Shown piece by piece: positions 54,988 to 64,000 of a stretch of 64,000 nt of DNA; within the stretch, counting starts at the first letter, position 1; each line of letters opens with the position of its first letter. A program made the position numbers and the translations under genes. The notes beneath the pieces were generated by a model. It saw nothing but the letters and a program-made list of their open reading frames with translations. It was not told the origin of the DNA and did no database searches. Origin of the DNA: Methyloversatilis sp. (GTDB lineage Bacteria; Pseudomonadota; Gammaproteobacteria; Burkholderiales; Rhodocyclaceae); the NCBI RefSeq assembly GCF_030698125.1, contig NZ_JAUYNV010000005.1, positions 1 through 64,000 of the forward strand, given 5' to 3'.

Positions 54988-55005
54988 AATGAAGCAGATA
55001 ACCTG

Positions 55006-55167
55006 TCAGCCTGTCTTGTCGAGCAGCGGTCGCAACCACTTTGCGACGCCGCGTCGCCTGAGTACCTCGCGTTGTTCCGGTGTGAGCCGGATAGTGACAG
55101 GTACCGTCGGATCAACGGGTTTACGGCCGGCACCGACACGGGTACCGCCGTGCGGTGACCGCGACAT
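55006..55167 (-). CDS. Small basic GAGRKP protein (possible DNA-binding ribbon-helix-helix type)
   Basis: This 53-aa gene reads MSRSPHGGTRVGAGRKPVDP followed by TVPVTIRLTPEQREVLR and a C-terminal basic helix ending WLRPLLDKTG. The GAGRKP start and a single beta strand followed by a helix are common in small ribbon-helix-helix-like proteins, so DNA binding is possible, but I do not recognise a named family. Its ATG shares one base with the preceding stop codon (TGATG), so it is translationally coupled to the 68-aa gene. It is too short for most gene-size cut-offs. Confidence 0.55.
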   Translation of the reverse strand: MSRSPHGGTRVGAGRKPVDPTVPVTIRLTPEQREVLRRRGVAKWLRPLLDKTG

Positions 55168-55373
55168 CACGCCCGATCGAAGGTCGGAGACTTTTCCGGA
55201 ACCACGTGGGTGAGATCGCCTTCGCCGATCAGGTAGTGATCGGTGCGTTTTGCCGAACGATTGTCGACCACCCCGAATGTCTTGTTGCTGTGGTGGTTGT
55301 ACATCGTCGACATCTGCGCCGCCTTGCCGCTGTTGAAAAGTGCCTTTGCCTGATCCAGTGTGAGCATTGTCAT
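55167..55373 (-). CDS. Small protein of unknown function, coupled to the GAGRKP gene
   Basis: This 68-aa protein starts MTMLTLDQAKALFNSGKAAQ and contains a His/Asn-rich middle (MYNHHSNKTFGVVDNR) and an acidic end. I do not recognise its family. A strong ribosome site, GGAGG, lies six bases before the ATG at 55373, which argues that it is real. It is the first gene of a two-gene unit ending at the inverted repeat near 54970. A toxin-antitoxin or regulatory pair is a guess from size and coupling only. Confidence 0.55.
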   Translation of the reverse strand: MTMLTLDQAKALFNSGKAAQMSTMYNHHSNKTFGVVDNRSAKRTDHYLIGEGDLTHVVPEKSPTFDRA

Positions 55374-55910
55374 AACCAACCTCCGTTGAGATGTCTGAGA
55401 CGTGAGCCTTGAATAGAAACCGAGTGCAACCTTTGACGAACTGGTACTTCCGGTTACGCCGTCAGCGCTTTTATCGCGCGCGGCTTTTTTTGTATCCCTT
55501 GGGCCCCGCTACCTGCTCTCCTTGGGTTGATCCAGCCTGCGACATGCCGGCTGCCAGCTTCAAAGTAAGACATCAATCAAGACGTTTCAAGTAGTTTTTG
55601 AAACTGTTTTATCGCTTGAAAACAAAGCGTTGAAGAATTTCTTTTCTGCGGCGCAGCATCTGCTGCAATCACCTCGAATACATTGAAGCGGACTCTGACC
55701 GCAAAGGCGCTCCGGCATTGCATGTCAGTGGATTTTTCGTTGCCAGCAAAAGATTAGCGCGATAAGTTGTCGTGAGCGCCTTGATCGGCGCGGCTCTGTG
55801 CCATCTGTACCGGACAAGCGGGAGGCTGTTGCGTCGCGTCATCACGGCGCTGTTCCGTGACCGGTCGCGGGGCGCTTTTTCGACGGGTCGGTCTGTCGGA
55901 CGGAGCCGGT
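55374..55910. other. AT-rich intergenic region
   Basis: About 530 bases with no gene I can support. The stretch 55560-55760 is clearly richer in A and T than its surroundings. It contains a perfect 7-bp inverted repeat, GTTTCAA (55584-55590) and TTGAAAC (55598-55604), with seven bases between. The minus-strand reading frame across 55669-55977 has no recognisable similarity or ribosome site. Confidence 0.7.
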
Positions 55911-56657
55911 TCAGCGCCCGCCGCTGACGTCCAGCAGTGCGCCGGTGGTGTAGGAAGCGTCGTCCGACAGCAACCACAGGATGGCGCGCGCCACTTCTTC
56001 CGGCTCGCCGCCGCGCTGCAGCGGCACAGAAGATTTCACCCGGTTCACCCGATCCGGTTCGCCGCCGGCGGCGTGGATGTCCGTGCGGATGACGCCGGGC
56101 CGGACGGCATTCACGCGGATGCCATCGGCCGCCACCTCCCTGGCCAGCCCGATCGTGAAGGTGTCGATGGCGCCCTTCGATGCGGCGTAGTCGACGTACT
56201 CGTCAGGCGAGCCAAGCCGTGACGCTGCCGACGACAGATTCACGATCGCGCCACCTGTGCCGCCATGCCGGCGCGACATGCGGCGCACGGCTTCGCGGGC
56301 GCACAGCATGCTGCCGATCACATTGGTTGCGAACACGCGACCGAGCCGCGCCGCGCTCATGTCTTCGACCCGGCTCTGCGATTCGAGGATGCCGGCGTTG
56401 TTCACCAGCGCCGACAGGCGGCCGAAGGCGTTATCGACGTCGCGGAACAGCCGCTCGACGTCCGCCTCGATGCTCACGTCGGCCGCCAGTGCGAGCGCCG
56501 TGCCGCCAGCCCTGGTGATGTCGCGGACCAGTACTTCGGCTGCGTCGCGCTGCCGCAGGTAGCTGACCACCACGGCATCGCCCTGCGCTGCGGCCAGACG
56601 CGCAGTCGCCGCGCCGATGCCGCGACTGCCGCCGGTGATGACGATGATTCGGTTCAT
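55911..56657 (-). CDS. Short-chain dehydrogenase/reductase (SDR)
   Basis: The 248-aa protein has a full Rossmann fold: IVITGGSRGIGAATA for cofactor binding, LVNNAGI, the catalytic YVDYAASKGA (Tyr and Lys), and the C-terminal TGALLDVSGG. It is closest in style to YgfF/glucose-1-dehydrogenase-like SDRs. The substrate is unknown. It is the last of the minus-strand genes in this region, 123 bp after the LpxH-like gene. Confidence 0.88.
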   Translation of the reverse strand: MNRIIVITGGSRGIGAATARLAAAQGDAVVVSYLRQRDAAEVLVRDITRAGGTALALAADVSIEADVERLFRDVDNAFGRLSALVNNAGILESQSRVEDMSAARLGRVFATNVIGSMLCAREAVRRMSRRHGGTGGAIVNLSSAASRLGSPDEYVDYAASKGAIDTFTIGLAREVAADGIRVNAVRPGVIRTDIHAAGGEPDRVNRVKSSVPLQRGGEPEEVARAILWLLSDDASYTTGALLDVSGGR

Positions 56658-56780
56658 GTTGAAGAAGCGCGAAGGTGATGCTGGAGATCCGGAAGGATAA
56701 GCCGGATCGAAACCTTGGCGCGATTGCCGCCATGCAGCCAGCTGGCATGCAGCGGTCGGCGGTCGGCGAAAACGCCGCGA

Positions 56781-57611
56781 TCAGTGACTCATCACTTCCT
56801 CGGCGACCGGCAGCGTCATGCGGGCGCCGGGCGTGCGCAGGAACTGGCCCCAGTCGATGATGGCGAACCGGCCGTCGGCGTGTTCGACGATGGCGGTGCA
56901 ACTGTCCACCCAGTCGCCGCAGTTCATGTAGACGACCCCGTCGATGGTGCGCTGGGCGACCGCATGGATGTGGCCGCAGATGACGCCATCAACGCCGCGG
57001 CTGCGCGCCTCGTGCATGACCGAATCCTCGAAATCGTAGATGAAGCTGACCGCGCTCTTCACCTTGCGCTTGGCATATCCGGCCAGTGACCAGTAGCCGG
57101 CGATGCCGAGCCGGCGGCGCACGCGCGACATCCATGCATTGATCCGTACCAGCGCGTTGTAGGCTACGTCGCCGAGCAGCGCGACCCAGCGGTGGTGGCG
57201 CGTCACCTGGTCGAAATCGTCGCCATGCACCAGCCAGTAGCGCTTGCCGTCCGCGGCGACGTGGATGTGATCGAGGTGGACCGCGATGTCGCCGAATACG
57301 GTGCCGGCATATTCGCGCAACGCCTCGTCGTGATTGCCCGGGACGAAGACGACCTGCGTGCCCTTGCGCGCACGCCGCAACACTTTCTGCACCACGGTGT
57401 TCTGTGCCGGCGTCCAGTGGATCGAGCGGCTCATCGACCAGAAGTCGATGATGTCGCCGATCAGATAGAGGTAGTCGGATTCGTAATGGCGCAGGAAGTC
57501 GAGCAGTGCGTCGGCCTGACAGCCGCGCGTACCCAGATGGATGTCGGACAGGAACAGTGCGCGTACGCGCTGGGGCGCGAATTCGTCGGCGGGGAGATCG
57601 GAAACATTCAC
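56781..57611 (-). CDS. UDP-2,3-diacylglucosamine diphosphatase-like metallophosphatase
   Basis: This is a 276-aa calcineurin-like phosphatase. All metal motifs are visible: FLSDIHLGT, GDIIDFW, VPGNHDE, VHGDDFD and CGHIHA. LpxH in lipid A synthesis is usually about 240 aa and cytoplasmic, and this longer form with YNALVRINAWMSRVRR belongs to the related LpxH-like branch found in many betaproteobacteria, whose substrate is less certain. I do not assign lpxH for that reason. Confidence 0.82.
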   Translation of the reverse strand: MNVSDLPADEFAPQRVRALFLSDIHLGTRGCQADALLDFLRHYESDYLYLIGDIIDFWSMSRSIHWTPAQNTVVQKVLRRARKGTQVVFVPGNHDEALREYAGTVFGDIAVHLDHIHVAADGKRYWLVHGDDFDQVTRHHRWVALLGDVAYNALVRINAWMSRVRRRLGIAGYWSLAGYAKRKVKSAVSFIYDFEDSVMHEARSRGVDGVICGHIHAVAQRTIDGVVYMNCGDWVDSCTAIVEHADGRFAIIDWGQFLRTPGARMTLPVAEEVMSH

Positions 57612-57701
57612 CGCCCGGATTCAAGCCTGCCCGTGTGACAGCGCAGTGACGCGCGCGCGAAGAATTGGCGGCACGGCAGGCGGCGCGCCGTCGACGCGGG
57701 T

Positions 57702-58835
57702 TCAATACATCAGCTGCAGCCCGAGGATGAAGCGGTTGCGCGAGCGTGCGCCGTCGCTGCCCATCTCTGAGTAAAAGGCACTCAGCCGCGCGTTATGACC
57801 CGAAATGATGTAATTCACGCCGACGTCCCACTGGTCGTTGCGGGCGCCTGTGTCGGGCCGGAATTCCTGATAACGGATATTCGGCTCGAAACGGCCGATA
57901 CCGATCTTCGTCGGGAACATGTAGGCGGCCGTCACGAACCAGGCGTCGCCCTGGATGGCGCCACCGCAGTTCGTGACACGGCTGCAGCCCGGATCGGCCG
58001 GTGATAGGTCGGCGACGCCGTCGGTGTCGTAGTCGTACCAGGCGCCTTCGAGCGTCACGACGGCGCCCGTGGACAGGCGGGTCTGCATCAGTGCGTCGAG
58101 GCTCCAGGCGGTGTAGTCGCCGCGGGTCAGTGCAGTGCCGACACCGTCCTTCTGCGTCCGCCAGGCGGCGCCGATGGTCAGTATTTCCTTTTCACCGAAG
58201 TAGTGGTTGCTGTTGAAGTACTCCGATTCCCGGTCGCGGAAGCTCCACGCGAAGCGTGTCGCGTACAGCAGCTGGTGCGACTCGTTCGACATATCCTCGC
58301 CGCGGTTTTTCCCCTGGAACGCGCCGACCATGTACTGCAACCGCTGGTCGAACACGCTGCCCCAGAGCGTTGCGCCATCATCGCGGCCGGTGTAAGCGTT
58401 GGGGTTGCGCGACACCATCGGGTATTCCCACACATTGGCGAAGTAGGGCCCCGCCATCTGCTGACGGTCACCCGGCACCACGTGGCGGCCGACCCACAGG
58501 TTGATGTTGTCGGTGAGGGTGAACTGGCCGACCAGATCGAGCAGGCGCATCGACTCACCCGACAGGCGCGCGAAATTGGTCATCAGTCCGATCTGTTTCG
58601 TGAACTTCGCGACCGTGATGATGCGGAAGGAATCGAGCCGCAGGTCGCTGTCGTGCGACCCGTCGGCCTGTTCGGCGCTCGTGTACGCGGCGCTTGACCA
58701 GACGCCGAGCGTCAGCGAACTGTCGCCCGGGCCGGTGAAGGTCGGGCCGGCGAAGGCATTGCCCGCGGCGGCGACACCGGCGGCGAGCGTGAAGGCGAGC
58801 GGCCCGCATCGCAGGCGGGAAGTCCTCTTCGTCAT
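57702..58835 (-). CDS. Outer-membrane porin
   Basis: The 377-aa protein has a signal peptide (about 1-28, ending GNAFAG) and a series of amphipathic beta strands ending with an aromatic residue (LGLQLMY), as porins do. The pattern fits a 16-stranded, phosphate/substrate-selective type porin. The start is the ATG at 58835, where AAGGA lies about ten bases upstream. The upstream gap carries a perfect NtrC-type site. It lies downstream of the AmiC/AmiR-like pair, so a role in uptake of amides or other nitrogen compounds is plausible; this is inference. Confidence 0.8.
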   Translation of the reverse strand: MTKRTSRLRCGPLAFTLAAGVAAAGNAFAGPTFTGPGDSSLTLGVWSSAAYTSAEQADGSHDSDLRLDSFRIITVAKFTKQIGLMTNFARLSGESMRLLDLVGQFTLTDNINLWVGRHVVPGDRQQMAGPYFANVWEYPMVSRNPNAYTGRDDGATLWGSVFDQRLQYMVGAFQGKNRGEDMSNESHQLLYATRFAWSFRDRESEYFNSNHYFGEKEILTIGAAWRTQKDGVGTALTRGDYTAWSLDALMQTRLSTGAVVTLEGAWYDYDTDGVADLSPADPGCSRVTNCGGAIQGDAWFVTAAYMFPTKIGIGRFEPNIRYQEFRPDTGARNDQWDVGVNYIISGHNARLSAFYSEMGSDGARSRNRFILGLQLMY

Positions 58836-58964
58836 GGGGTGAGTGTCCTTTGGTGTGCAGTGGCTCGGTACGGGCCCCGGTCTTTGCCGGGTGTCCGCTT
58901 GATGCAACCGGCCATGCCCCATCCTGGGGCGGACAGGGGCAGCCGGGTCATGCGCGGCGCATTG

Positions 58965-58981
58965 TGCACCAAATTGGTGCA
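58965..58981. promoter_or_regulatory. NtrC-type binding site upstream of the porin
   Basis: TGCACCAAATTGGTGCA is a perfect dyad that matches the NtrC consensus (TGCACC-N5-GGTGCA). It lies 130 bases before the porin ATG, the usual distance for a sigma-54 enhancer. Only an imperfect sigma-54 promoter (spacing one base long) is visible between them. Confidence 0.6.
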
Positions 58982-59034
58982 ATGAGGTCGGTTGGCGCCA
59001 GGGGATATCCCGCGCTACCGCGCGAGCGGAAACG

Positions 59035-59065
59035 AAAAAGGCGTGCTCGCGCACGCCTTTCGGTT
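59035..59065 (-). terminator. Terminator after the amiR-like gene
   Basis: GGCGTGC and GCACGCC form a stem with a three-base loop (TCG). The adjacent AAAAA gives a U run on the minus strand. It starts about 27 bases after the end of the AmiR-like gene and separates it from the porin. Confidence 0.7.
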
Positions 59066-59091
59066 CCGGGGATGCGCCCGCTGGCGCCTGG

Positions 59092-59727
59092 CTACCCCGC
59101 CGGTCCCGACAGGATGGAATTGGCGTGGATGATGGCGCGTGCGATTTCCTCGGTCGGCACGCGGCGGCTCATCGCCTGCTCGCGGATGATGCGGTAGGCC
59201 TCGCTGTCGCCGACATTGCGCGTGCGCATCAGGATGGACTTCGCTTCGTTGATCTGATTGATGCCCAGCAGCTTCTGCTCAAGCCTGAGCACGCGCTTCT
59301 CGGCCTTGCGCATGGCTTCGTTCAGACCCACCGTCAGCACCAGCGTCGACAGGATGCCGGTCGAGCGGATCGGCGCCGTGAGCACACCCGTCGCACCCAG
59401 CTTGATCATGGCATCGAAGATGGTCGGGTTTTCGTAGCTGATGATGGCAATCACCGCGGGCGGCTGTTCCTGACGGACCCAGTTGAACGACATGCCCATG
59501 ACGTCCTGGTCGACGGCACAGAACACCAGGTCGACGTTGTCCGGCAGATCGGGCACCGGCGGCCAGAAGGTCTGCACCTGGCAGCCGATGCGCTGCAACT
59601 GCTGGGTCAGGGTTTCGCCGTCCTCGTCCTTCGGGTGCAGCACGGCGACGCGCAGGCTGCGCAACTGCCTGAGGAATTCCGGTGTGAGCCGCGCACCGCG
59701 GCTGGAGGGGCGGGCCGGGCTACTCAC
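59092..59727 (-). CDS. AmiR/NasR-type ANTAR antitermination regulator
   Basis: The 211-aa protein has a receiver-like domain (about 18-135) and a coiled coil (about 140-165). Its C-terminal ANTAR domain holds LGINQINEAKSILMRTRNVGDSEAYRIIREQAM. ANTAR proteins bind paired RNA hairpins and stop intrinsic termination, as AmiR does for the Pseudomonas amidase operon. It starts with GTG at 59727, overlapping the amiC-like stop by eight bases, so the two are translationally coupled. The receiver domain lacks a phospho-acceptor pattern like that of response regulators, as in AmiR. Confidence 0.9.
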   Translation of the reverse strand: MSSPARPSSRGARLTPEFLRQLRSLRVAVLHPKDEDGETLTQQLQRIGCQVQTFWPPVPDLPDNVDLVFCAVDQDVMGMSFNWVRQEQPPAVIAIISYENPTIFDAMIKLGATGVLTAPIRSTGILSTLVLTVGLNEAMRKAEKRVLRLEQKLLGINQINEAKSILMRTRNVGDSEAYRIIREQAMSRRVPTEEIARAIIHANSILSGPAG

Positions 59728-60892
59728 GGCGGGTCTGCTCGTCGGCAGGCACGCGCAGGCGATTGCTCCAGTCGTCGAACGAATGACTGACCAGATAGGG
59801 ATCGGGTTCGACACCCGACAGGGTTTCCGCAAGTATCGTGAATTGCCCGCTGTCGTTGACGCGGCCGATGCGCGGAAAAAGCCGCGTGTGGTGATTGTTC
59901 GGATTGACGCGGATGCGGCCCTGCGGCGCATCGAATTCCATGCCCAGCAGGTGCGGCAGCAGCACATCGCGTTCATCGCTGTTGGCAGCAGCGAAGGCGC
60001 CGGCAAACAGGTGCACCTGGTTGTAAGAGGATTCCCAGCTCATGTTGGGCTCGACCTGGGAACCGAAGAGCTTGCGGAAGTGCGCCACACAGTTGTGGTT
60101 GCGTTCGGTGTCGATCGACTGGAAATAGGGGCCCGCCGTGTAGTGACCTTCGGCGATGCGCTTGCCCATTTCGGCAATTTCTTCTTCGCTGGTACACAGG
60201 CTGGCGATCGGCATGCGCGCCGGATCGAGCCCAGCATCGGCAAAGGCCTGATAGAACATTCGCGTAGTCCGACCGACTACGGTCGAGAAGATGAAATCGG
60301 GCTGCTTGGCCTGAATGTCCTTGATGATGGGCGCAAAGGCGCTTTCCTGGGCGTCCAGCCGGACGTAGCGCTCGCCCAGTTTCGCGCCGCCCTGCCGCTG
60401 GTGTACGAAGTCGCTCATGATGCGGTTCGACTCGTACGGAAAGATGTAGTCGCTGCCCACCATGTAGACCCGCGCGCCGAAGCGGCTCGCCATGTAGTCG
60501 GCCAGCAGCGCGCTGTTCTGGTTCGGTGCGCCGCCGGTGTAGATGACGTTTTCCGAAAACTCGAAACCTTCGTACATCGTCGGGCAGAACAGCAGGCGGT
60601 TCCACTTCTCGACCACCGGAAGTATCGCCTTGCGCGTGCTCGACATGTAGCAGCCGAAGATGACATTCACCTTGTCTTCAAGCACCAGACGCGTGGCGAG
60701 CGACTTGAACATCTGCGGGCTGGAGTGCGGGTCGTAATAGACCGGCACGAGTTCGCGGCCATTCAGGCCGCCGGCATCGTTGATTTCACGTATTGCGAAG
60801 AGCGTGCCGAGCAGCATCGAATTTTCGATGCGCGAGGTCACACCCTCGCGCGAAAACAGGACGCCGACCTTGACCGGATCGGAGTTGGACAC
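59720..60892 (-). CDS. AmiC-type amide sensor (periplasmic-binding-protein fold, cytoplasmic)
   Basis: The 390-aa protein aligns over its length with AmiC, the amide-binding negative regulator that holds AmiR inactive. It has no signal peptide, as AmiC does not. Conserved segments include VGVLFSREGVTSRIE, YEGFEFSENVIYTGGAPNQN and GSDYIFPYESNRIM, the last around the ligand tyrosine. Translation starts with GTG at 60892 and no Shine-Dalgarno sequence is visible there. The pair is divergent from the DMFase genes, with a 269-bp gap. Confidence 0.9.
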   Translation of the reverse strand: MSNSDPVKVGVLFSREGVTSRIENSMLLGTLFAIREINDAGGLNGRELVPVYYDPHSSPQMFKSLATRLVLEDKVNVIFGCYMSSTRKAILPVVEKWNRLLFCPTMYEGFEFSENVIYTGGAPNQNSALLADYMASRFGARVYMVGSDYIFPYESNRIMSDFVHQRQGGAKLGERYVRLDAQESAFAPIIKDIQAKQPDFIFSTVVGRTTRMFYQAFADAGLDPARMPIASLCTSEEEIAEMGKRIAEGHYTAGPYFQSIDTERNHNCVAHFRKLFGSQVEPNMSWESSYNQVHLFAGAFAAANSDERDVLLPHLLGMEFDAPQGRIRVNPNNHHTRLFPRIGRVNDSGQFTILAETLSGVEPDPYLVSHSFDDWSNRLRVPADEQTRRE

Positions 60893-60940
60893 AGGACAGT
60901 GAAAGCGGAGAACGAAAAACGAATTTGATACTAACAGAGC

Positions 60941-60970
60941 TTGACGCAGTGCAGCGGGCGTGACTAGTAT
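60941..60970 (+). promoter_or_regulatory. Promoter for the dmfA leader
   Basis: TTGACG (60941-60946) and TAGTAT (60965-60970) are 18 bases apart and resemble sigma-70 elements. The predicted start near 60977 lies seven bases before the first leader hairpin, so the hairpins would be at the 5' end of the RNA. Confidence 0.55.
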
Positions 60971-60983
60971 TGAGCCATCTCTT

Positions 60984-61028
60984 CACATCGCCAGCACTGC
61001 CGATGTGAGGCAAGGCAAAAGGGCCTGC
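60984..61028 (+). promoter_or_regulatory. Tandem ANTAR-target hairpins in the dmfA leader
   Basis: The first hairpin is CACATCG (60984-60990) with CGATGTG (61001-61007), which can end in a C-G pair closing the hexaloop AGCACT. Two bases later comes GC-A-AGGC (61010-61016), hexaloop AAAAGG, and GCCTGC (61023-61028). ANTAR targets are known to be two adjacent hairpins with six-base loops starting with A; G at loop position 4, also conserved, is A in both of these. The second hairpin uses the 5' arm of the following terminator, so the two cannot form together. Confidence 0.7.
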
Positions 61029-61061
61029 TCGAATCTCCGGATTCGGCAGGCCCTTTTTTTT
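61021..61061 (+). terminator. Intrinsic terminator in the dmfA leader
   Basis: GGGCCTGC and GCAGGCCC enclose a second perfect stem, CGAATC/GATTCG, with loop TCCG and one bulged T. A run of eight T residues follows. It ends 100 bases before dmfA1 and overlaps hairpin 2 of the ANTAR target over 61021-61028. Confidence 0.9.
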
Positions 61062-61161
61062 GCGTCTTTTGTCTTGCCGCGCTGCAACAGGCTGGCTGCA
61101 GCGTCGAGGGATTGATGATCGGCTTTCCATCCAATTTCCGTGTTCTGAAGGAGTCTGACCG

Positions 61162-61602
61162 ATGATTTCGATACCGAAGAAAGGCACGCCGGAGCGCGAT
61201 CGCCTGATCCGGGAGCATCTCGAGTGCGTGCAGTCGATGGCCGGCGTCGCGGGTTTTTCGGTGCTCAAGTGCGCCACGCCGGGCGACACCACCGTCATCA
61301 GCGGTGGCGTGCATGAAGACCCGCTGCTCAAGCGCGTGCTGCTGCGCATGCGGGGTACCTCGACGAAAGGCAAACTGGTCGTGATCTGTACCCGCCTCGA
61401 TGCCGAATGGCGCATCGGGCGCTTGTCCGGTATCCGTGGTGTGCCGCCGGTATTTGCGACTGACGATGTCTACACCAGCGAGCAGGACATCCAGCACGCC
61501 ATCTTCCTGATGCGCCTCGATGAAATGCCCGAATCCGACGGATTCCCGGAGCATTACCACGAAGGCTACAAGCGCCGCGACGACAACTGGCCGGTCACCT
61601 GA
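61162..61602 (+). CDS. dmfA1: N,N-dimethylformamidase small (alpha) subunit
   Basis: DMFase hydrolyses dimethylformamide to dimethylamine and formate. The 146-aa protein matches the small subunit by size and context: it is rich in charge, with DRLIREHLECVQSMAGVAGF and the C-terminal FPEHYHEGYKRRDDNWPV. AAGGAG at 61148-61153 precedes the ATG by eight bases. The larger subunit follows after 134 bp. Identification rests on the pairing with dmfA2 and on recall of the family. Confidence 0.8.
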   Translation: MISIPKKGTPERDRLIREHLECVQSMAGVAGFSVLKCATPGDTTVISGGVHEDPLLKRVLLRMRGTSTKGKLVVICTRLDAEWRIGRLSGIRGVPPVFATDDVYTSEQDIQHAIFLMRLDEMPESDGFPEHYHEGYKRRDDNWPVT

Positions 61603-61736
61603 TACCGCGTCGGTCGCGTCGACAGCCATTCAGCCAGCGGCCCCGGCACTGACGCCCGGGCACGCACTTCCCGCAAATTTCAAGCAACGCATCCGGACCC
61701 CCGGAGGGCGGCGCTCGACCAGGAGAGACGAACACC

Positions 61737-64000
61737 ATGTGTGCAATGCGACTGACCGGATACGCCGACAAGTTCGGCGTCCATCCGGGCGACACGATCA
61801 GGTTCTACGTCAATTGCGATGGTCCCGCGAAGTACCGGGCGTCCGTCGTGCAGATGATCAACGGCGATACCAACCCGCGCGGTCCAGGTTTCATCGAGAA
61901 GGCGGTGGAGGCGGACTGCGAAGGCGTGTATGACGGCATCAAGCAGGTCGTCTACGGCGGTTCGTACGGCTTCGTGCCTGACGCACCGCAACTCAAGCCG
62001 GACAGTTTCACGCTGCAGTGCTGGATCTGGCCGACCACGCCCAAGACCGACAAGCGCTACTGGAAGCACGGTGCACAGGGGCTGGTGACCAAGTGGTCCG
62101 GCGGCAAGGGCTACGGACTGTTCATCAACACCGACGGCTGCGTCGAACTGCGCATCAATGGCGAAACGTACTCGAACGGTGCGCCGCTGCGCGACCACGC
62201 CTGGCACTTCATCGCCGCCAGTTTCGACGCGCTGACCGGCGAAGTGGTGCTGCATCACGAGCCGCAGGTGGTCTATGCGCTGGACCCGGAGATTCCGCCG
62301 GTCAAGGCGACCTTCAAGGGCAAGGTGGAACACACCGACCAGCCGCTGGTGATCGCCGGCTACGTCGATCATGTCGAACCGGGCCCGCTGGGGCTGCCGT
62401 CACTGCCTCAGGGCGTCATCGTCGGCGGTCACTACAACGGCAAGATCGACAGCCCGCGTCTGTGCAACCGCGCCCTGTCGCGCTTCGAGATCGAAATGAT
62501 GAAGGGCGGCGCGCAGCCGGGCCTGACCGAACGCCGCAACGCCGGTCCGACCGGCGCGCTGTCTGAAGCCATCGTGGCCGCCTGGGATTTTTCCGATGGC
62601 ATCGACACACTGATGGCGAAGGACGCCGGCCCGTACCGCTTCAACGCCACGCTCGTGAATTGCCCGACGCGCGCGCTGACCGGCTACAACTGGGCCGGCC
62701 AGACCTTCGACTGGAAGGTGTCGCCGAAGGAATACGGGGCCATCCACTTCCACGACGACGATCTCGACAACGCACGCTGGGAGGTGAGTTTCGAGTGGAC
62801 GGTGCCGACCGGCATCAAGAGCCGCTTCTACGCCGCCAAGCTGACCACGCCCGAGGGCGACGAGGACTACATCCCGTTCTGGATCGTGCCGAAGATCGGC
62901 CAGGAACAGTCGAAGATCGCGGTCATGGTGCCCACGATCAGCTACATGGCCTACGCGAACGAACACGTGGCGTGCAACGCCGGTGGCGCGGAACTGTTCA
63001 TCTATCGCGTACCCATCATGCAGCAGCAGAACATGTTCCTCGCCGAGCACCGCGAGTACGGCGGTTCGATCTACGACACCCACACCGACGGCAGCGGCAT
63101 CTGCCTGTCGTCACGGCTGCGCCCCATCCTGAGCATCCGTCCAAAGTACGATCACTTTCTGGCCCAGGCGCCGTGGCAGTACCCGGCCGACCTGCACCTG
63201 ATCTGCTGGCTGGAACAGATGGGCTATGAGTACGACGTGTTCACCGACGAGGACGCGACCTACGACGGTCTGGCACGACTGGAGAACTACAACGTCATCA
63301 TCACCGGCTCGCACCCGGAGCACAACTCGGGTACCCAGCTCGACGCCCTGCACAATTACACGCAGCGCGGCGGTCGCCTGATGTACATGGGCGCCGACGC
63401 CTGGTACTGGGTGCATTCGTTCCACCCGGCCTACGACGGTCTGGGCCGCGGCGTGGTGACCGAAATGCGCCGCTGCGAATCCGGCATCCGCACCTGGCGC
63501 GCCGATCCGGGGGAGTACTACCACCAGGGCACCGGTGAGCTTGGCGGGATGTGGCGTTATCGCGGCCGCTATCTCCATTCGGTGGCCGGGACCGGCATGT
63601 CGTCCGAAGGTTTCGACATTTCGTCCTACTTCACGCGGACGCCGGAAAGTCTGGATCCGCGCGTGAGCTGGGCGTTCGACGGCATCACCTACGAAGAGAA
63701 CCTGGGCAACTTCGGTCTGGTCGGCGGTGGCGCGGCCGGTCTGGAACTGGACATCGTCGACACCATGCTGGGTTCGCCGCCGCACATCCTCACCGTCGCC
63801 ACGTCGGCCGGCCGTCATACCGAGGCCTACCTGCTGGTGATGGAGGATTTCGGCTTCAACCAGCAAGGTCTGGACGGCACCGTGCATCCGCGGGTGCGTG
63901 CCGACGTGACCTTCCACGAGACGCCGAACGGCGGCGGCTGCTTCGCGTTCAGCTCGATCGCCTACTGCGGTTCGCTGCCGTGGAACAACTGCGACAACAA
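61737..64000 (+). CDS. dmfA2: N,N-dimethylformamidase large (beta) subunit, incomplete at window end
   Basis: 754 residues are visible and the frame is open at the last base; the known enzyme is about 760 aa, so only a few residues are missing. A LamG/concanavalin-like beta domain (about 90-250) is followed by the DMFase C-terminal domain with PTISYMAYANEH, the EYGGSIYDTHTDG segment and TGSHPEH. The crystal structure of the Paracoccus enzyme has a mononuclear iron held by two tyrosines and one glutamate. Candidate ligands here are Tyr403 or Tyr406, Tyr441 or Tyr446, and Glu528. AGGAGA lies ten bases before the ATG at 61737. Confidence 0.88.
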   Translation, partial: MCAMRLTGYADKFGVHPGDTIRFYVNCDGPAKYRASVVQMINGDTNPRGPGFIEKAVEADCEGVYDGIKQVVYGGSYGFVPDAPQLKPDSFTLQCWIWPTTPKTDKRYWKHGAQGLVTKWSGGKGYGLFINTDGCVELRINGETYSNGAPLRDHAWHFIAASFDALTGEVVLHHEPQVVYALDPEIPPVKATFKGKVEHTDQPLVIAGYVDHVEPGPLGLPSLPQGVIVGGHYNGKIDSPRLCNRALSRFEIEMMKGGAQPGLTERRNAGPTGALSEAIVAAWDFSDGIDTLMAKDAGPYRFNATLVNCPTRALTGYNWAGQTFDWKVSPKEYGAIHFHDDDLDNARWEVSFEWTVPTGIKSRFYAAKLTTPEGDEDYIPFWIVPKIGQEQSKIAVMVPTISYMAYANEHVACNAGGAELFIYRVPIMQQQNMFLAEHREYGGSIYDTHTDGSGICLSSRLRPILSIRPKYDHFLAQAPWQYPADLHLICWLEQMGYEYDVFTDEDATYDGLARLENYNVIITGSHPEHNSGTQLDALHNYTQRGGRLMYMGADAWYWVHSFHPAYDGLGRGVVTEMRRCESGIRTWRADPGEYYHQGTGELGGMWRYRGRYLHSVAGTGMSSEGFDISSYFTRTPESLDPRVSWAFDGITYEENLGNFGLVGGGAAGLELDIVDTMLGSPPHILTVATSAGRHTEAYLLVMEDFGFNQQGLDGTVHPRVRADVTFHETPNGGGCFAFSSIAYCGSLPWNNCDN

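Follow-up and report, generated by a model that had tools for sequence, protein, structure and literature searches.

The window analysed here is a stretch of 64,000 nucleotides from Methyloversatilis sp., near the end of which an AmiC/AmiR-type regulator pair stands divergent from dmfA1-dmfA2, as the initial annotation had proposed; all four genes are present on the evidence of Pfam and solved-chain matches, that for DmfA1 being weak. On the reverse strand, amiC (59720-60892) encodes a 390-aa amide sensor of the UrtA/AmiC type, with a Peripla_BP_5 domain (Pfam, E 9e-132) and with Pseudomonas aeruginosa AmiC (1pea, E 1.3e-84) as its nearest solved chain. Also on the reverse strand, amiR (59092-59727) encodes a 211-aa RNA-binding antiterminator with AmiR_N (5.7e-36) and ANTAR (6.6e-13) domains in Pfam, its nearest solved chain being 1qo0_D (E 9.3e-26). 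AmiR probably starts at the GTG at 59727, overlapping the amiC stop, rather than at 60006, where the longer open reading frame begins. Judged by eye from the translations, the nearby UrtA carries a signal peptide and AmiC has none, as expected because the sensor would be cytoplasmic; the locus therefore holds an AmiR_N and ANTAR protein adjoining a periplasmic-binding-fold sensor that lacks an export signal. On the forward strand, dmfA1 (61162-61602) encodes a 146-aa small subunit of the dimethylformamidase (DMFase) type and dmfA2 (61737-64133, running past the window end at 64000) a 798-aa large subunit of the DMFase family, with a DMFA2_C domain (Pfam, E 4.8e-90) and the Paracoccus DMFase large subunit 6lvb (E 6.9e-156) as nearest solved chain. 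DmfA1 alone gave no match as a query in searches including Pfam; its assignment comes from profile comparison, in which the best PDB match of a 26-sequence profile was the DMFase small subunit 6lvb_B, weakly (E 0.011).

The forward-strand leader of dmfA1, which the initial annotation did not mention, is organised like an ANTAR antitermination site, with two small hairpins preceding a terminator. Pattern search and leader alignment place a sigma70-like promoter (TTGACG-18-TAGTAT) at 60941-60970; its -35 element and the block 5′ of it are conserved across the seven leaders aligned, apart from one base in L011, and the pattern itself occurs once against a mean of 1.3 in shuffled sequences. Downstream lie P1 (60981-61010, hexaloop AGCACT at 60993-60998), supported by folding and covariation, P2 (AGGC-AAAAGG-GCCT, 61013-61026), likewise with a six-base loop, and an intrinsic terminator (61017-61061; stem 61017-61057, T tract 61054-61061; -31.8 kcal/mol, z -6.57), whose 5′ arm overlaps P2. 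Leader RNA ended after the P2 arm folds as P1 and P2, and the piece 61014-61062 folds as the terminator; the fold of the whole leader reaches -51.2 kcal/mol, with 0/200 shuffles equally stable. Terminators were sought by folding scans, and a perfect-stem scan missed most leaders through bulges and mismatches. Four Rfam matches in 55000-64000 all fell under the gathering score and were set aside as chance; the palindrome of the terminator accounted for two.

Across seven genomes, 6 of the 11 P1 pairs show two-sided changes. In an alignment of 14 leaders (11 distinct), 98.4% of cells are paired and 26 cells carry two-sided changes, neither value being matched in 500 shuffles; less striking measures were the number of pairs with two-sided changes (3/500 shuffles) and of further pair types (145/500). 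P2 is invariant in the leader alignment and so has no covariation support. Both loops have A at position 1, but carry A at position 4 where ANTAR dual-hexaloop RNAs have G, a base that is important for EutV according to the available text of PMC3369931 and PMC8934654. The P1-P2 linker is 2-3 nt when P1 is fully paired, and a linker of 3 nt strongly lowered eutP induction in the portion of PMC3369931 available to us.

A covariance model built from these leaders (R1) was used to search the genome, with 150 of 5535 candidates scored. Two sites are strong, the dmfA1 leader (104.9 bits) and a second leader of the same kind at contig C39 66299-66383 on the forward strand, beyond the window (97.8 bits); the next scores, 39.9 and 28.3, are antisense matches at the same two sites, followed by 21.3 elsewhere. 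The second leader heads an operon 5 kb downstream of the dmfA operon, comprising a urtA-type gene, ureF, ureAB, ureC, ureG and ureD (contig C39 66488-73006, forward strand). Among the 150 of 5535 candidates scored, neither strong site lies at the genome's own amiE and no site was found at the fmdA operon, whose formamidase gene lies ~10 kb downstream.

The leader, the sensor and the enzyme gene travel together across the genus. In 11 of 13 genomes an AmiC of at least 80% identity occurs with a DMFA2 gene ~3 kb away and with two R1 sites scoring over 90 bits; the other two lack a close AmiC and any R1 site, and their only DMFA2 gene is a 36% paralog in one of them (G455). Among 78 scorable dmfA loci, dmfA1 is preceded by a terminator in all 12 at which an AmiC-AmiR pair adjoins it, which fall in two clades and are therefore not independent, and in one of the remaining 66, weakly (-20.0 kcal/mol).

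R1 also matches leaders 5′ of urt or AmiE genes adjoining other AmiC-AmiR pairs, including all four loci picked by AmiC likeness (30.6-40.4 bits). Its matches to Burkholderiaceae dmf and urtA leaders are weak (24.5-32.3 bits in L013, L014, L083 and L084; 13.2 for dmfA1 of L083), with no match on the correct strand in L015 and L016. In these Burkholderiaceae leaders of dmfA1 and urtA the P1 loop reads AAAG[AG][CT], with both A1 and G4, and P2 reads GGC-C[AG][AT]AAA-GCC, with no A1 in its loop; the L119 leader has A1 and G4 in both. A P. bohemica leader (L122, from the same genome as L065) was missed by R1 and by the folding scan and located by eye (-44.6 kcal/mol, 0/200 shuffles). One further R1 match (G409:C23, 34.3 bits) was rejected, as its contig has no ANTAR gene and it looks like a chance terminator.

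We consider it very likely, with a probability of about 0.86, that AmiC and AmiR together act as an amide-sensing switch that controls the dmfA1-dmfA2 and urtA-urease operons by antitermination. The genes, the hairpins, the terminator and its overlap with P2, the covariation of P1, the two-site regulon and the co-distribution support this at the sequence level, bearing out the initial annotation's choice of this pair as the dmfA regulator; the A4 of both hexaloops, the short linker and the invariant P2 count against it. Without ligand, AmiR would be held by AmiC, and transcripts begun near 60977 would end at the terminator. Binding of a small, amide- or urea-like ligand by AmiC would free AmiR to bind P1 and P2; as P2 takes in part of the terminator's 5′ arm, the terminator could not then form and dmfA1-dmfA2 would be transcribed. 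The binding and release of AmiR by AmiC, its binding to RNA and induction itself are inferred from the AmiC/AmiR, EutV and NasR systems. One Tyr and one Met of the solved ANTAR chain 6wsh, which we take to be EutV with its numbering shifted by two, align to a Tyr and a Met in AmiR, and on that assumption would be EutV Tyr164 and Met172. These two EutV residues hold the hexaloop, as the available part of PMC8934654 describes.

The second target points to a role of the urea type or in nitrogen supply, and there is some chance, though a limited one, that AmiC senses urea and that dmfA belongs to a urea or general nitrogen-scavenging regulon. Besides the leader at the head of the urtA-urease operon, this would fit the match of AmiC to the UrtA profile (below the profile cut-off), the urease gene found in 26 of 80 dmfA2 loci within flanks of up to 8 kb, and the sigma54-like sites 5′ of both the dmf and the urtA leaders of Burkholderiaceae (6/6 each). 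AmiC nevertheless groups with other AmiC proteins, including amidase-linked ones, apart from UrtA-type sequences (support 100/100), and several of its aligned pocket residues are not those of the urtA product. Positions of AmiC between 83 and 233 have a role in the acetamide pocket; among the solved chains, 1qnl shows a change at one of them, 106. The Methyloversatilis AmiC has Cys in place of Tyr104 and of Thr233. Four pocket positions had been taken as genus-specific, but Phe152 also occurs in L117 and position 107 is variable, leaving Cys104 and Cys233.

The circuit had initially been read as DMF- or formamide-responsive and as serving an iron-dependent DMFase, and this part is doubtful. 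DmfA2 keeps the iron ligands Y399, Y440 and E521 as well as H519, E657 and F693, so that the DMFA2_C domain occurs here with two Tyr and one Glu ligands and a small subunit of weak resemblance; together with the nearby formamidase gene and a methylotrophic host genus, this is what speaks for a DMFase induced by DMF or formamide. However, the catalytic Asn547 is replaced, by Asp554 in DmfA2: Asp occupies this position in all 87 members of its clade, ~39% identical to known DMFases, and Asn in all 21 other DMFA2 proteins examined. The Asn547Ala mutant of the Paracoccus enzyme was inactive (PMC7686228, in its available text). A clade member on pAMI5 of Paracoccus aminophilus, 70.7% identical, is reported not to be linked to DMF use in the part of PMC4543880 available, where the host could not use DMF after loss of pAMI2, though this member may have been unexpressed. 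The fmdA operon, too, had no R1 site among the 150 of 5535 candidates scored. A DMFase induced by DMF or formamide is thus unlikely. DMF is doubtful as inducer or substrate, being one candidate ligand of AmiC and not the favoured one, and this large clade, "DMFase-like" in public annotation, probably acts on something else.

More speculatively, and with a slightly smaller chance still, the switch might control a new iron amidohydrolase, the Asp554 clade cleaving a urea-like nitrogen compound that the Cys104/Cys233 AmiC senses. A methylated guanidine or urea, for example, might yield methylamine and urea, which would account for the many methylotrophs among the hosts and for the co-regulation of the urtA-urease operon; Methyloversatilis and many of the host genera are methylotrophic, to go by genus names. 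All 80 loci with an Asp554-clade dmfA2 also have a Rieske-like gene beside it (here contig C39 64167-65153, forward strand, beyond the window), in whose product the cluster ligands are replaced and four invariant cysteines are found instead.

That the leader is a plain attenuator untouched by AmiR, which would act elsewhere, for instance on amiE, is very improbable: an amiE-type gene does occur elsewhere in all 13 genus genomes and neither hexaloop follows the published consensus at position 4, but neither of the two strong R1 sites (150 of 5535 candidates scored) lies at amiE, genomes of the genus have either all or none of the leader, a close AmiC and a DMFA2 gene near it, and the same leader class heads amidase operons adjoining AmiC-AmiR pairs elsewhere.

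Antitermination of dmfA by AmiC/AmiR, very likely in view of the leader, the R1 sites and the terminator co-distribution, would tie a classic RNA switch to an iron-type amidohydrolase family, in a two-operon regulon that is testable through base-level RNA predictions. A literature search, mostly outside subscription journals and covering the available text of its sources, found no paper linking AmiC or AmiR with DMFase, the only regulator of the family encountered there being of the LuxR type. In P. aminophilus pAMI2 (dmfR-dmfA1-dmfA2), which shares the two-subunit DMFase family, the LuxR-family DmfR lies upstream of dmfA1 according to the available part of PMC4543880, and no AmiC/AmiR was found among the annotated features around its dmfA; its large subunit is ~39% identical and has Asn547. 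A LuxR-family gene also directly precedes the small-subunit gene in Methylobacterium DM1, whereas here amiC adjoins dmfA1, in keeping with the contrast first suggested.

The P. aeruginosa AmiC/AmiR-amiE system shares both protein families (1pea, 1qo0) and the leader-terminator logic, its amiE leader having two hairpins (Ramesh et al., PMC3369931, in its available text). Here, by comparison, the targets are the DMFase-family pair and the urtA-urease operon; the regulator genes point away from dmfA1, both loops carry A4, and R1 (150 of 5535 candidates scored) has no site at the genome's amiE, which lies elsewhere. The EutV dual-hexaloop of the eut operon likewise combines P1 with a P2 that overlaps the terminator (available text of PMC3369931 and PMC8934654), though here the sensor is AmiC-type instead of a kinase and both loops have A4 instead of G4. 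Other genomes have AmiC-AmiR pairs accompanied by urt genes, AmiE genes or both (L117, L118, L120, L154, L155/L160, L156-L159). These loci share the R1-class leader, and their AmiC proteins are 58-63% identical; their enzyme is an aliphatic amidase (seen in all but L158; NCBIfam NF009802 in L118) instead of DmfA1A2, and the eight AmiC proteins compared keep the Tyr104 and Thr233 that are Cys in Methyloversatilis. One kind of regulator pair with one leader class is found with different amide enzymes, AmiE and DmfA, across bacteria.

The initial annotation placed an AmiC/AmiR-type pair divergent from dimethylformamidase genes, and this arrangement is borne out. On contig C39 (140,247 bases, the first 64,000 of them forming the window) of the 4.2 Mb genome, amiC (59720-60892) and amiR (59092-59727, probably starting at a GTG that overlaps the amiC stop) lie on the minus strand, as does a porin-like gene (57702-59054) scoring below its family's cut-off, while dmfA1 (61162-61602) and dmfA2 (61737-64133 of contig C39) lie on the plus strand. 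The plus strand continues with a Rieske-like gene (contig 64167-65153; L004:6168-7154 in the numbering of this locus), a Sel1-repeat gene next to it (L004:7138-7845), a urtA-type gene (66488-67666) matching the UrtA profile above cut-off, and then ureF, ureAB, ureC, ureG and ureD.

The enzyme assignment survives at the level of the family only. Of the residues that PMC7686228 assigns to iron binding and catalysis in the Paracoccus enzyme, DmfA2 retains the iron ligands and most of the catalytic ones. At the position of Paracoccus Asn547, however, all 87 clade members (the window's DmfA2 counted in, near-copies retained) have Asp, against Asn in 21/21 other DMFA2 proteins; the N-acetyl-beta-phenylalanine acylase 8huy has Asn there as well. 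The Asp clade includes the P. aminophilus pAMI5 gene (70.7% identity), and loss of pAMI2 from that host meant loss of DMF use, according to PMC4543880. Given the substitution and the pAMI5 evidence, we therefore keep 'DMFase family' and drop 'DMFase'. AmiS/UreI-type transporter genes were seen 3′ of DMFA2-family genes on two plasmids, pAMI5 (a short way beyond dmfA2) and one from Rhodococcus sp. USK13 (L111, L126).

The 269-base gap between amiC and dmfA1 holds, on the plus strand, a sigma70-like promoter (60941-60970) and a predicted leader transcript. The promoter scan gave one site in the scanned stretch versus 1.3 in shuffles; an alignment of seven leaders shows conservation of the –35 region and of the block preceding it. 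The predicted transcript would form two hairpins, P1 (60981-61010) and P2 (61013-61026), as well as an intrinsic terminator at 61017-61057 with a T tract reaching 61061; the terminator's 5′ arm overlaps P2. For the 101-base leader the predicted folding energy is –51.2 kcal/mol (shuffle mean –28.8; 0/200 shuffles as stable). Ended directly 3′ of P2, it is predicted to fold into P1 and P2, with 4/200 shuffles equally stable, and the piece 61014-61062 adopts the terminator fold at –31.8 kcal/mol.

In each of seven genomes urtA is preceded by the same leader as dmfA1, giving a covariation alignment of 14 leaders. RNAalifold, unaided, recovers P1 and the terminator, with two-sided changes preserving 9 of 29 pairs; in the named structure 98.4% of cells are paired and 8/28 pairs show two-sided changes. 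The observed percentage paired, covariation score and two-sided cells were reached by 0/500 shuffles, the number of pairs with two-sided changes by 3/500 and the number of further pair types by 145/500. Two-sided changes fall mostly in P1 (6/11 pairs versus 2/17 in the terminator), and covariation is uninformative on P2 because P2 is invariant. The loops read A[AG]CA[CT]T in P1 and AAAA[AG]G in P2.

A covariance model, R1, was trained on the dmfA1 and urtA leaders of the Methyloversatilis group and nothing else. Its two strong matches in the host genome are those before dmfA1 (104.9 bits) and urtA (97.8 bits), followed by antisense matches at the same two sites (39.9 and 28.3) and then 21.3 elsewhere. 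No R1 site was found at about 73083-77581 of the contig (L004:15084-19582), where a porin-like gene, the formamidase gene FmdA (NF045496) and urt-type ABC ATPase genes lie in convergent orientation. Across the genus, 11/13 genomes carry an AmiC of at least 80% identity, two R1 sites each above 90 bits and, at a distance of some 3 kb from the close AmiC, a DMFA2 gene. The other two, G455 and G456, have neither a close AmiC nor an R1 site at E 1e-4; G456 (93% complete) lacks a DMFA2 match, and that of G455 is a 36% paralog. An aliphatic amidase above cut-off occurs in 13/13 genus genomes, the host's copy being on another contig.

Outside the genus, a search of 14 genomes gave six R1 sites of at least 34 bits, five on contigs that also carry an ANTAR gene no more than about 11 kb away and one (G409:C23) on a contig without such a gene. 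Among 300 genomes of the order (the host included), strict filters left R1 sites at E 1e-4 in two others, both adjoining AmiC-AmiR and AmiE. As the loci from both searches were picked by R1 itself, L156-L159, the best four outside the genus by AmiC likeness, form a fairer test set: all four have an R1 site before AmiE or a urtA-type gene, at 30.6-40.4 bits, a strength that might escape a whole-genome search. L159 combines urt genes and amiE with urease genes at one locus. In L156, AmiR-AmiC-AmiE lies near another DMFA2-family gene (37% identical) with ABC-transporter and porin-like genes.

We kept 80 of 111 confirmed DmfA2-relative loci (68-99% identity, best segment). Draft or metagenome assemblies make up many of the genomes compared. 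The nearest loci (L007-L012, 93-99% identical) are five from Methyloversatilis and one from a Gammaproteobacteria metagenome bin. The Rieske-like gene is present in 80/80 loci and the Sel1-repeat gene in 77/80; the former's product, a Rieske-oxygenase-like partner, has a weak GbcA match and no Pfam match, and in 43/43 aligned members four invariant Cys take the place of its cluster motif. AmiR-like genes occur in 15/80 loci: L007-L012, Burkholderiaceae (L013-L016, L083, L084), P. bohemica (L065) and marine alphaproteobacterial L075 and L076. In the last two the gene (L075:12760-13368; L076:4904-5521) sits between the Sel1 and urease genes, and the tblastn map placed no AmiC-type match next to it. 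With the unscorable L062 and L076 left out, a terminator at least as stable as –20 kcal/mol within 450 bases 5′ of dmfA1 was found in 12/12 loci whose AmiC-AmiR pair adjoins dmfA1, which represent two clades and thus not independent events, versus 1/66 others (L018, –20.0 kcal/mol). P. bohemica is placed among the 66 because its pair faces urtA; applied 5′ of upstream urtA-type genes in the other loci, the scan found 2/46 and missed the P. bohemica leader.

In Burkholderiaceae, amiC-amiR lies between divergent urtA and dmfA1. The leaders of both genes share the core GACAAAG[AG][CT]GT in 12/12, with a subsequent C in 11/12, and two-sided changes in 11/26 predicted pairs; R1 detects them weakly or not at all. 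Sigma54-like GG-N10-GC sites 5′ of both leaders (6/6 each) suggest additional nitrogen control.

In neither the AmiC tree (28 rows) nor the AmiR tree (22 rows) do the dmf-linked proteins from Methyloversatilis and from Burkholderiaceae fall into a single group. Branches with good support require two changes in the AmiR tree but only one in the AmiC tree, and several rows are long-branched, so that repeated recruitment is likely but not proven. Positions 104, 107, 152 and 233 of P. aeruginosa AmiC we take to be ligand-pocket positions. Seven AmiC of the Methyloversatilis group have Cys at both 104 and 233; eight from amidase or urt loci (L117, L118, L120, L154, L156-L159) have Tyr and Thr, and that of L119 Tyr and Asn. 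Phe152 is common to the Methyloversatilis-group AmiC and L117, and position 107 varies. Burkholderiaceae dmf-linked AmiC retain Tyr104, Tyr152 and Thr233, so an altered pocket is no rule for dmf-linked AmiC. As for the P1-P2 region, proposed as an ANTAR antitermination site, the dmfA1 leader differs from the EutV findings in hexaloop position 4 and in linker length.
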